A stretch of DNA of 44,531 nucleotides, from NCBI GenBank assembly GCA_030429345.1, contig JAUIFJ010000029.1, positions 1 to 44,531 of the forward strand. The letters run 5' to 3'. This stretch comes from a bacterium. Lineage in GTDB: Bacteria > CAIWAD01. The notes beneath the pieces are model-generated. The model was given only the letters and a program-made list of their open reading frames with translations. It did no database searches and had not been told where the DNA came from. Made by a program: the position numbers and the translations under genes. Below, in pieces: positions 22,391 through 26,330 of the stretch (position 1 is the stretch's first letter; each line of letters begins with the position of its first letter).

Positions 22391-23488
22391 CTAGCGAGCC
22401 CGGAAGCGGCTTCCGTAGTCCTCGCTCTTCGGCTGGAGCGATTCCGCCAAGTCGGCATGAGTCCGGAGAAGTTTTCCGTCCGGAAGCGCAGGCGGAACGG
22501 GAGCGGGCAACCCTTCAAGAAGCGCCGTGATACGCGCCGCCGATGCCCTCCAGTGCTCCTTCGAAACACGCCCAGCCGCAACCGCTGCGCGCAGGACCTC
22601 GGCGCACACGCGCGCCCGTTCCGGGTGGTGATTGAAGAGCAGCAGGTCGACGCCCGCGCGGAAAGCCTGTTCGTATACATCATCGCCGGGCCCGGCGAGC
22701 GCCGCCATGTCCGTGTCATCGGACACGCAGACTCCGGCGAACCCCAGCTCTTCCCGCAGCAGCGTTCGAAGGGCCAACGGGGACAGGGTCGCCGGCCTCC
22801 CCGGGTCCAGAGCTTCGAAGGCCACGTGGGCACTCATCACGAGTGAAGCTCCGGCGCGGATGCCAGCCCGGAAAGGCGGCAGTTCCCGTTGACGCAGCGT
22901 TTCCAGGTCCGCCTGCAGACGCGGAAGCTCGTCGTGGGAATCCTGCCGGGTATCCCCATGCCCGGGGAAATGCTTCAGGCAGCTGCGCAGCCCTTCGGCT
23001 TCCACCGTCTTCACGAAAATGGAGACTCTCTCGGCGCAGGCTTCCGGCGCCTCCGCAAAGGCTCTCGGCCCGATGACGGGATTCCCCGGGTTCGAGTGCA
23101 CATCCGCCACCGGTCCGAAGAGCAGGTTGATCCCGATGGCGCGCAATTCGCGGGAGATGGCCCGGGCGACCTGCTCCACCTGATCCCCCCAATGCATGGC
23201 GTAGGGAAAGCGGGTAAAGGGCCGCGGAAGACGATGCACCTGGCCGCCCTCATGATCGATGGCCACCAGCATCCCCGGTCGATCGCAGAGCTGCCGGCTT
23301 TCCGCCAGCAGCTCCCCCAGGGCCTCGAGCCAGGAGTCGCCAGCTTCTCCCGGAAGGAAATTCCGCTGGAGCAGGTGCAAACCGGCCGGACGCAGTTCGC
23401 GCAGCAGGGAGCGTTCCGCCTTCCCGAGGCGCGGGCCGGGAAGCGTCAGCAGCAGGTGCAGTCCGGGGTCGAATGGGATGTCTGACAT
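22391..23488 (-). CDS. nagZ: GH3 beta-N-acetylhexosaminidase (NagZ-like)
   Basis: 365 aa, single-domain GH3. It has the NagZ signature KHFPGHGDTRQDSHDELP at about 168-185 (catalytic His-Asp dyad loop), IDHEGGQVHRLP, and the nucleophile in VSDDTDMAAL. NagZ removes N-acetylglucosamine from muropeptides or glycan fragments. No signal peptide, so cytoplasmic cell-wall recycling is likely. The start at 23488 lacks a clear ribosome site. It is convergent with the methyltransferase and divergent from the GlmS-like gene, so two amino-sugar genes share one promoter region. Confidence 0.9.
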   Translation of the reverse strand: MSDIPFDPGLHLLLTLPGPRLGKAERSLLRELRPAGLHLLQRNFLPGEAGDSWLEALGELLAESRQLCDRPGMLVAIDHEGGQVHRLPRPFTRFPYAMHWGDQVEQVARAISRELRAIGINLLFGPVADVHSNPGNPVIGPRAFAEAPEACAERVSIFVKTVEAEGLRSCLKHFPGHGDTRQDSHDELPRLQADLETLRQRELPPFRAGIRAGASLVMSAHVAFEALDPGRPATLSPLALRTLLREELGFAGVCVSDDTDMAALAGPGDDVYEQAFRAGVDLLLFNHHPERARVCAEVLRAAVAAGRVSKEHWRASAARITALLEGLPAPVPPALPDGKLLRTHADLAESLQPKSEDYGSRFRAR

Positions 23489-23651
23489 GGAGCAAAGCTT
23501 GCAGCCGGCAGGGGAATGCGCAAGCCCCGGGATCGGGCGCCCGCATCCGCTTTCCACAGCTTGGAAATGATAAGTTCATGCGCCTTTCGCCGATAAGATG
23601 AGGGTCTCCGGCAGAAATCTGCCGACTGCCAAGCCGAAAGTGGATGGACTC

Positions 23652-26330
23652 ATGACCAAGCTGGATCTTCGCACCGGTTTCGCCCAGTGGGCAACCCGCC
23701 TCGCAAGCCACTTCCTGCAGCGGATTCGCACTGGCATCGGCCAGTGCCCGATTCCGGTTCCGGGAATCCGTCCCGCACTGGGTTGCGGGGTGCTTGGCCT
23801 GATCTACCAGAAACGGACGATCAAACTGGGAGAGGTGGCGACCCGGCTGCTGGGAGCGCTGGAGTACCGCGGCTACGACAGCACCGGAGGCGCTTTCCAG
23901 GACGGCGAGGAGATCACCCTTCTCAAAGCGCCGGGCGCTCCTTCCCAGATCTGCGGCAAACTGGGCATTCCGCAGCAGGCGGGACGGATCTTCTGCGGCC
24001 AGGTGCGCTGGGCGACCTACGGGGCGGTGGATCAGCTGAACAGCCAGCCTCATGTAGTACAGTGCAAACGGCGGATCTTCGGCGCGCACAACGGCAACAT
24101 CTCCAATTCCCCCAAACTCAAGCAGTGGTTGATGGAACAGGGGCACACGGTGCTGTCGGACAACGACGGGGAGATGCTGGTCCACACGGTGGAACACTAT
24201 TTCGACGAGGAACTCGCCGGCGGATCACATTCCGACGAGAACGCGGCCATGCGGGCGGCCATCGTGCGCGCCTGTCGCACACTGACCGGCAGTTATGCGG
24301 CGATCATCGTCAACCCCGCGACCGAGACCGTCTGGGCGATCAAGCGCGGCAGCAGCCTCTATGTGGGACTGGCCTCTTCCGAGGAGGCCGAGGACGAGAA
24401 CGGCTTCATTCTCGCCAGCAGCGACCTGACGGCGGTGCTGCGCATGACGCGCCTGCTCCTTCCGATCCGCGAGGGGCAGTTCGTCGAGTTCGGCGCGGAC
24501 GACTACCAGGTCTATGCCTCGCGGGACCTCAGCTACCGGAACGAGAACGGCGACACCGTCCAGACCGCTGCCGGAGCGGAGATCGCGATGGATCCGCGCT
24601 TCAGCAACCTGCAGGTGGACGAGATCGGGCTGCGCGAGGGCTTCGGCCACTTCATGGAGCAGGAGATTGTAGACGAGATCGACAGCGCGCGGCGCCTGGT
24701 CCGGCTCTTCACCTGGGGCAGCATGCGCCTGCGCGAGTTCCGGGCCGCGGACGCCGACTACAGCAGCCTCTTTCCGGAGGGAGAGAAGCTCTTTGGGCGG
24801 ATCACGCTGGCCCGCAGCACGCAGGAACTCCTTTCCACCTGCCGCGAACTGCTGGAGGACGACGGCATCTGGGAGCGTGTGACAGCCCTGCCGGAACCGA
24901 TCTGGTCCGACGACGCCTTCTACAGCGACTACGCGCCCATGCTCGAGTGGGCCTGGCAGCACTTCCGCTCGCATCCCCGCAACCGCATGCTGAAGCTGGT
25001 CGACCTCTACCTGGAGAACGACGAGATCAACGACCTGAACACGAAGCTGATGGGCTTCGTCCAGGCAGTGCAGAACTGCCGCAAACGCGGCGGCCAGCTC
25101 TACGCCGTCTGCTCGGGAACGAGCTACAACGCGGCCCGCACCGGGGCGTTGTTCTTCAACGACCTCTGCGGGATCAAGCTGATTCCCATGCTCCCCGGGG
25201 AGTATCGCGGCCAGTTCAACCACAGCATCAGCGACCGGGACCTGCTGATCACGATCTCCCAGAGCGGCGAGACCAAGGATGTGATCGACGTGGTCAACGA
25301 CCTGGAAGCGAAAGCGCCCGGCCTGGAGCACATTTCGATTGTCAACAACATGAACTCGACCCTGGCCCAGGAGAAGTCGGACATCGCGATCCCCCTTCGC
25401 TGCGGCCCGGAAATCGCCGTGCCCGCGACCAAGAGCTACATCAACCAGAACACGATGCTGCTGGGCATGGCCAAGTACCTGAGCGCCAGGCTGGGCGGCC
25501 GCGGAGGCGCGGGCCTGCTGCCGCACCACGAATCACGCCTGGACCTGATTCCGGACCTGCTGCAGCAGACCCTGAGCAGCACGCGCAAGGAGGTGGACCA
25601 GACGGCGGAGGATCTCTTCCTCGTGCCCAGCCTGCACATCCTGGCCACGCGCATGTGGGGCGTGGCGCGAGAGGGAGCGCTGAAGATCCGCGAGGTCGTG
25701 TTGAATCACGCCGAGGGAATCGCCACGACCGAGTTCAAGCACGGGCCGAACACGATCCTGGGGCTGAACAACTCCTACGGCATCGACCAGGTCCAGAGCT
25801 GGACCCGGGCCCTGCTCAACCAGCTGACCGACCTGCCCGGACTGGCCGGCCTGCAGGGCGCCGAACTGCGCGCGGCCCTGCACGATTTCGCCGAGGGACT
25901 CTTCGACGGCCGCATGGCCGACCAGCACCCGGATGCCGCCCAGCGCCTGCACGACAGCCTCTACAAGGATTATCCCCTTGTATACATCACGGGCCCCGGC
26001 AAGCGCGACGTGGACCTGACGATCAGCCAGATCAACACGCACAAGATCCGCGGAGCGATGAGCATCGTGATCGCCGAACCCAACGAGGACCTGCGTCACG
26101 CGGCGCTGACTCCGCCCGCCGACAATCCGGACTACAAGGGACGCTTCATCGCCCTGCCGCCGACCGGGGACCTGATCTACACCAGCTTCAGTTCGATGAT
26201 GGTGCTGCAGCGCCTGGCCTATGCCATGTGCCTGCGCAAGATGGCCTACCTGGACCGAATGGGTTTCCGGGAGCACGGCGTACACCCGGATTCGCCCAAG
26301 AACGTCTCCAAGTCCATTACGGTGGACTAG
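23652..26330 (+). CDS. GlmS-like glutamine amidotransferase/SIS-domain aminosugar synthase, enlarged
   Basis: 892 aa from 23652, or 910 from the alternative start at 23598; normal GlmS is about 610. The glutaminase nucleophile Cys (CGVLGLIY) is internal, at residue 45 (63 from 23598), behind a tail rich in basic and hydrophobic residues. The glutaminase landmarks are present: ALEYRGYDSTG, VRWATYG, HNGNISN, SDNDGE. A roughly 130-residue helical insertion follows HFMEQEI. The two SIS domains have CSGTSYNAARTG, TISQSGETKD, VPATKSY, the isomerase Glu segment REVVLNHAEG and the terminal SPKNVSKSITVD. The chemistry is fructose-6-phosphate + glutamine to glucosamine-6-phosphate or a close variant. 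The internal Cys implies a propeptide, as in PurF or GltB. Confidence 0.85.
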   Translation: MTKLDLRTGFAQWATRLASHFLQRIRTGIGQCPIPVPGIRPALGCGVLGLIYQKRTIKLGEVATRLLGALEYRGYDSTGGAFQDGEEITLLKAPGAPSQICGKLGIPQQAGRIFCGQVRWATYGAVDQLNSQPHVVQCKRRIFGAHNGNISNSPKLKQWLMEQGHTVLSDNDGEMLVHTVEHYFDEELAGGSHSDENAAMRAAIVRACRTLTGSYAAIIVNPATETVWAIKRGSSLYVGLASSEEAEDENGFILASSDLTAVLRMTRLLLPIREGQFVEFGADDYQVYASRDLSYRNENGDTVQTAAGAEIAMDPRFSNLQVDEIGLREGFGHFMEQEIVDEIDSARRLVRLFTWGSMRLREFRAADADYSSLFPEGEKLFGRITLARSTQELLSTCRELLEDDGIWERVTALPEPIWSDDAFYSDYAPMLEWAWQHFRSHPRNRMLKLVDLYLENDEINDLNTKLMGFVQAVQNCRKRGGQLYAVCSGTSYNAARTGALFFNDLCGIKLIPMLPGEYRGQFNHSISDRDLLITISQSGETKDVIDVVNDLEAKAPGLEHISIVNNMNSTLAQEKSDIAIPLRCGPEIAVPATKSYINQNTMLLGMAKYLSARLGGRGGAGLLPHHESRLDLIPDLLQQTLSSTRKEVDQTAEDLFLVPSLHILATRMWGVAREGALKIREVVLNHAEGIATTEFKHGPNTILGLNNSYGIDQVQSWTRALLNQLTDLPGLAGLQGAELRAALHDFAEGLFDGRMADQHPDAAQRLHDSLYKDYPLVYITGPGKRDVDLTISQINTHKIRGAMSIVIAEPNEDLRHAALTPPADNPDYKGRFIALPPTGDLIYTSFSSMMVLQRLAYAMCLRKMAYLDRMGFREHGVHPDSPKNVSKSITVD

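Follow-up and report, generated by a model that had tools for sequence, protein, structure and literature searches.

The window analyzed here, a stretch of 44,531 nucleotides of bacterial DNA, encodes a GlmS-type glutamine amidotransferase that is probably made as a precursor and cut between a glycine or alanine (position −1) and the cysteine that becomes residue 1, likely by the enzyme itself. We infer both the cleavage and the substrate from comparison with related proteins. Among the 81 members of this long-form branch with a readable N terminus, 44 carry a translated leader and lack a start codon beside the cysteine, and 37 have an ATG directly before it; in ordinary GlmS, a start codon adjoins the cysteine in all 23 proteins with a readable N terminus (ATG in 20, GTG in two, TTG in one). 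The propeptide proposed in an earlier note on this DNA therefore has strong comparative support as far as the leader is concerned, whereas its removal is deduced. The contrast that the note drew with ordinary GlmS, and the likeness to PurF, also hold: the PurF of the same genome (L004, G000:C21) begins MESGIGEY/CGLFG (the slash marks the bond before the cysteine), with a leader of eight residues and tyrosine at −1.

Domain architecture and active site of the long form

The 910-residue reading frame (Table 1) matches the Pfam domains SIS (59 bits), GATase_6, and GATase_7, both GATase matches being above cut-off. It reaches 268.9 bits with the NCBIfam model TIGR01135, which has a cut-off of 418.05; four other long-form members score 272.7–319.6, and the ordinary GlmS of the window genome scores 813.2. 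The purF profile matches only the glutaminase part (72.5 vs. 350 bits), and SIS takes the place of the phosphoribosyltransferase domain. Among solved structures, those of E. coli GlmS and human GFAT are the nearest.

That the catalytic cysteine lies 44 or 62 residues into the protein, with no start codon adjoining it, is confirmed by the codons and by the alignment with E. coli GlmS, whose residue 1 falls on the TGC codon at 23784–23786. The cysteine is residue 63 when counted from ATG 23598 and residue 45 from ATG 23652. Together with GTG 23640, these are the only in-frame start codons upstream of it; the two codons directly preceding it are CTG and GGT, and ATG, GTG, and TTG are absent between ATG 23652 and the cysteine. 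No Shine–Dalgarno match of at least four bases precedes either candidate start in the window.

The roughly 300 extra residues counted in the earlier note apply to the whole reading frame (910 residues vs. 606 in the ordinary GlmS of the same genome), and about 240 of them belong to the mature part. An insertion that had been put at about 130 residues is real but has a smaller net size (about 105 residues, with residues 365–503 of the query corresponding to 264–297 of E. coli GlmS) and a slightly different place, following the first helix of the isomerase domain in the AlphaFold2 model. A second insertion follows the catalytic histidine (residues 706–770 of the 892-residue form).

Table 1. Features of the GlmS-like gene in the window
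Feature	Position	Strand	Remarks
GlmS-like class II glutamine amidotransferase, whole reading frame	23598..26330	+	910 aa from the upstream ATG; 892 aa from ATG 23652
N-terminal leader, proposed propeptide	23652..23783	+	44 residues from the second ATG, ends PIPVPGIRPALG; start at 23598 or 23652
Predicted nucleophile, Cys1 of the mature enzyme	23784..23786	+	TGC codon, preceded by GGT (Gly at −1)
Glutaminase (Ntn) domain	23784..24626	+	Placed by Pfam, alignment, and model
Helical insertion inside the isomerase part	24711..24986	+	About residues 354–445 of the 892-aa form; pLDDT 93.0
First SIS subdomain	25092..25631	+	Motifs CSGTSYN, SQSGETKD, EIAVPATK
Segment answering to E. coli Lys485, Glu488, and His504 (LKIREV...EFKHGP)	25632..25766	+	Residues kept in 74/74
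Second insertion, variable in length	25767..25961	+	27–99 residues in relatives starting at Cys
Second SIS subdomain and C-terminal tail NVSKSITVD	25962..26327	+	Schiff-base Lys codon 26310–26312; Lys in 74/74

The AlphaFold2 model of the 892-residue form has a mean pLDDT of 87.2 and predicts the leader as a helix (residues 6–28) followed by an uncertain stretch or coil (residues 29–44, pLDDT < 50). VIA-align superimposes the model on E. coli GlmS (1jxa_A; Z 40.3, rmsd 2.7, 595 residues), with residue 45 of the model on residue 1 of GlmS; the alignment with human GFAT-1 (6svq_B; Z 41.7, rmsd 2.9, 590 residues) likewise begins at residue 45, and the glutaminase part (residues 45–321) aligns with 1xff_B over 236 residues (Z 32.3, rmsd 1.8). 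The helical insertion is an all-helical domain also when predicted alone (pLDDT 93.0). A Foldseek search with the insert alone found no match at E ≤ 0.001; the best match of a second structural comparison (Z 3.4, rmsd 4.5, 76 residues) falls short of proving a new fold. Both leader-bearing and leader-free members contain the insert, which is therefore independent of the leader.

Conservation of the active site extends over both halves of the enzyme. In E. coli numbering, Arg73, Trp74, Asn98, Gly99, Asp123, Ser303, Gln348, Ser349, Thr352, Val399, Lys485, Glu488, His504, and Lys603 are kept in all 74 aligned members, and Cys1 in all 73 that cover this position; in the numbering of the long form, the class II active-site residues are Arg119, Asn147, Gly148, and Asp172 (74/74). 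Catalytic roles of Cys1, Glu488, His504, and Lys603 in GlmS are given in an excerpt of PMC9272926. Relative to E. coli GlmS, two residues are swapped throughout the branch, Ser401 to Ala and Ala602 to Ser (each 74/74), which in the window correspond to Ala592 (25425–25427) and Ser886 (26307–26309) of the 892-residue form. The equivalent motifs of 24 ordinary GlmS are VASTK in 21 and VAATK in one (two did not match the pattern), and AKS in all 24. Both positions presumably belong to the sugar pocket, and the swaps may signal a different sugar.

Distribution of the leader

The first search, which covered the window genome (G000; 98% complete) and 59 relatives, recovered full-length long-form homologs only from the window genome, G001, and G002, all of one family; among these 60 genomes, the long form was not found in G003, which belongs to the same genus as G001 and G002 and is 91% complete. 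A scan of genome contigs with a single sequence found no relatives. Scanning 84,980 species with an alignment yielded 128 relatives, the best 80 of which were used; these 80 have identities of 38–60% and stem from Cloacimonadota, Delongbacteria, Myxococcota, Riflebacteria, Elusimicrobia, Spirochaetota, Acidobacteriota, and a few other groups. The 81 readable members comprise 78 of these 80 (two truncated at the N terminus were left out), the window, G001, and G002, and the 44 leader bearers accordingly comprise the latter three and 41 loci of other phyla.

In the window (PIPVPGIRPALG), G001 (PVPVPAMRQGLA), and G002 (PLPLPGLRMGLA), the leader ends directly before CGVLGL, and across the branch its end follows the motif P-x-x-G-[IL]-G/CGVLG. 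Among the 44 leaders, position −1 is glycine in 42 and alanine in two (G001 and G002), position −3 is glycine in 36, and position −6 is proline in 37. The residue at −1 is kept while its codon varies (GGT 16, GGC 13, GGA 12, GGG 1, GCC 1, GCT 1). Shine–Dalgarno matches precede the leader starts in most members, including a perfect AAGGAGG in G001, whose start lies 24 codons before the cysteine, and AAGGAG before an ATG 33 codons upstream of it in G002 (this gene is divided between two contigs, which were read unjoined). That 44 of 81 members carry a leader with the same motif excludes chance, and the 37 members that start with ATG immediately followed by the cysteine codon identify this cysteine as the expected mature N terminus of the whole branch. 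Within the branch, the N terminus is thus switchable between a direct start at the cysteine and a leader.

The long form is present in 89 of the 117 Cloacimonadota genomes drawn and thus probably has a central place in the metabolism of this phylum. From these genomes, 73 N termini were read that were new by genome number, although some lie on contigs identical to those of the earlier loci and therefore overlap with the first set; glycine occupies −1 in 73/73, and an ATG adjoins the cysteine in 0/73. A leader-bearing copy in a Bacteriovoracaceae bin (L081) contains an internal stop; misbinning, transfer, or decay are possible.

The strength of constraint on the leader differs among lineages. 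In comparisons that were right-justified and ungapped and in which pairs are not independent, pN/pS of the last 10 leader codons was 0.295 in ten Cloacimonadota (45 pairs) and 0.360 in six Delongbacteria-type loci (15 pairs); mature codons 1–60 gave 0.164 and 0.083, respectively. In the family of the window, comparing the window with G001 and with G002 (two pairs) gave a leader value of 0.488 over 13 codons, and comparing G001 with G002 (one pair) gave 0.850 over 15 codons, so that constraint appears to be weak there.

Two Delongbacteria would represent natural losses of the leader. L062 and L113 read M/CGVLGLSF, and a leader is absent in every upstream frame; L062 sits among Delongbacteria in the tree, beside the leader-bearing L069, and L113, which is too short for the tree, has nearly the same sequence at its start as L062. 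These loci suggest that the enzyme can be made without the leader, a behavior to be expected from a propeptide but not from an integral part of the protein. In a quickly built tree whose outgroup consisted of only two ordinary GlmS, the leader requires three changes, two of them forced by starred branches. A topology that unites every leader bearer and L062 in one clade was not rejected (p-AU 0.392), which is compatible with one or two origins of the leader.

Ordinary GlmS and gene neighborhood

The earlier note had proposed looking for a second, normal glmS, and the window genome does encode one, a protein of 606 residues that begins MCGIVG. A GlmS above the TIGR01135 cut-off occurs in 35 of the 41 genomes that carry the long form; the six others (G062, G069, G070, G078, G082, and G090) are drafts and may be incomplete. 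G003 and G004 were searched as well, but both are without the long form and stand outside the 41. The long form is thus mostly a second enzyme and not a replacement of GlmS. Judged from sequence comparison, its pocket changes and its co-occurrence with ordinary GlmS fit a specialized amino-sugar-phosphate synthase.

Among the 41 leader-bearing loci of the scan, an IspD homolog lies upstream in 30 and an IspF homolog downstream in 30, all in Cloacimonadota; neither was found beside any leader-free locus of the scan, with which the neighbor listing had also grouped the truncated L042 and L091. In the Cloacimonadota loci L043–L110, the long gene stands between the ispD and ispF homologs (e.g., L046:5249–9198); a radical SAM gene is often found upstream, and a gene of the MobB/Fe-S or U32 peptidase-like kind downstream. 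In Delongbacteria (L053, L062, L068, L069, L073, and L112), it is located near yceG-like and phoH-like genes instead. The neighbors in the window are a divergent gene for a GH3 (NagZ-like) glycoside hydrolase (22394–23557, minus strand) and an unnamed reading frame of 1051 residues. In G001 and G002, a long CHAT/TPR-like reading frame, named by eye, precedes the GlmS-like gene; the one in G001 (L036:2449–10629) is a frame of 2726 residues, repeat-rich and CHAT-like by eye, and ends about 25 bases before that gene. Because the window, G001, and G002 have other neighbors, the ispD–ispF context is not general. Among 99 proteins encoded next to leader-free members, no family recurred in more than three members. 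A role in a defense system was considered and set aside, as there was no PADLOC match.

Probable removal of the leader and relationship to known enzymes

According to the most probable scheme, the bond between Gly(−1) and Cys1 would be cut to release the leader (44 or 62 residues in the window), and the Ntn domain is the most likely agent of this cut, as in PurF. An N-to-S acyl shift would be in keeping with the small residue at −1. Loss of the leader would free the thiol of the cysteine together with the α-amino group, and the mature enzyme would then hydrolyze glutamine and hand the ammonia to the SIS part, which would convert fructose 6-phosphate, or a closely related ketose phosphate, to an amino-sugar phosphate by amination and isomerization. 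The product may be a distinct amino sugar. Self-cleavage is favored because the precursors of the related PurF and GltB are assigned to MEROPS family C44 of self-processing enzymes in an excerpt of PMC5753285 and because the autocatalytic removal of PurF propeptides is reported in passages of PMC7056826. In passages of a review of Ntn hydrolases (PMC9140057), self-activation of precursors is described as a hallmark of the class, and GFAT is listed within C44. Several observations count against a precursor: the weak constraint on the leader in the family of the window, the absence of a Shine–Dalgarno match in the window, Ala(−1) in G001 and G002, Tyr(−1) in PurF, the Delongbacteria without a leader, and the poorly predicted leader end. 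The tyrosine at −1 in the PurF of the same genome also indicates that the glycine motif is not a general rule of class II enzymes.

A variant of the same scheme, in which a separate protease cuts the leader and the leader serves as a chaperone or keeps the enzyme inactive until assembly, is rather unlikely but not negligible. Gly-x-Gly just before the cysteine could be a protease site, and the loss in two Delongbacteria agrees with a dispensable leader; however, the known class II precursors PurF and GltB cut themselves, as stated in excerpts of PMC7056826 and PMC5753285, and the only protease gene that recurs beside the long form is the U32-like one (12 loci, mostly behind ispF). We consider it improbable that the leader is never removed and that the enzyme either depends on ammonia or is only a sugar-phosphate isomerase with a vestigial glutaminase. 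The intact SIS residues and the ordinary GlmS in most long-form genomes would accord with such an enzyme, but a dead domain would drift, whereas all tested glutaminase residues are kept in every aligned member and the cysteine in every member covering it, and 37 of 81 relatives expose the cysteine directly.

Cleavage by a signal peptidase, or use of the leader for membrane attachment, as in a targeting or lipoprotein signal, has little to recommend it despite the basic N-terminal parts of the leaders, their alternating hydrophobic stretches directly before the cysteine, and the predicted helix followed by coil. The lipobox [LVI][ASTVI][GAS]C fits none of the 44 leaders, and prolines interrupt any hydrophobic core in many of them; moreover, a lipidated cysteine would be blocked as a nucleophile, and GlmS-type enzymes have cytosolic substrates. 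Least credible of all is a translation start at or next to the cysteine from an unusual codon, which would leave no leader to remove. The window does have a CTG two codons before the cysteine, but the cysteine directly follows GGN or GCN in 44/44 members and GGN in 73/73 Cloacimonadota, the leaders are conserved as protein, and upstream Shine–Dalgarno matches are found in most members.

Returning to the self-processed precursor, a bolder extension is conceivable, if doubtful as a whole: a self-processing branch of the GlmS lineage that evolved an autocleavage motif of its own (G-[IL]-G/CGVLG), with a helical insert of unrecognized fold and a product other than glucosamine 6-phosphate, which the position between ispD and ispF in Cloacimonadota would tie to the supply of lipid carriers or the cell envelope. 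Close relatives with and without a leader constitute a natural experiment on the gain and loss of propeptide maturation in Ntn enzymes, and the leader offers a sharp sequence motif for mutation. The branch also represents a widespread second GlmS-like enzyme in poorly studied phyla.

Neither the leader nor the branch is named by Pfam, NCBIfam, or PDB, and the open papers searched contained nothing relevant on a propeptide or N-terminal extension in GlmS. GlmS is regarded as the class II amidotransferase that requires only the removal of the first methionine. The long form shares with GlmS/GFAT (TIGR01135) the Ntn glutaminase and double SIS, the predicted fold, the catalytic residues, and the C-terminal lysine tail, but differs by the leader before the cysteine, a mature part longer by about 240 residues, a score below the equivalog cut-off, Ala and Ser in place of Ser401 and Ala602, and its occurrence beside ordinary GlmS. 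It would work like GlmS with a PurF-like maturation, yet it scores below the equivalog threshold, and we do not classify it as GlmS.

With PurF of the Bacillus subtilis type (MEROPS C44), the long form has in common the class II glutaminase and a propeptide that in PurF is cut to expose the cysteine, with self-cleavage reported in an excerpt of PMC7056826. It differs from PurF in having a double SIS instead of a phosphoribosyltransferase domain, and the leader of the same-genome PurF is shorter and ends in tyrosine. An Fe–S cluster by analogy with B. subtilis PurF was rejected, as there is no set of cysteines that tracks the presence of the leader in the way that such a cluster would require. 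The synthase domains of GltB, the large chain of glutamate synthase, differ from those of the long form. What the two share is the class II glutaminase, and the GltB precursor is self-cut according to an excerpt of PMC5753285. Proteasome β-subunits and other Ntn hydrolases belong to the same Ntn class but have a threonine nucleophile and unrelated sequences. In proteasomes, a glycine at −1 precedes the nucleophile, a likeness to the leaders of the long form that is only an analogy.
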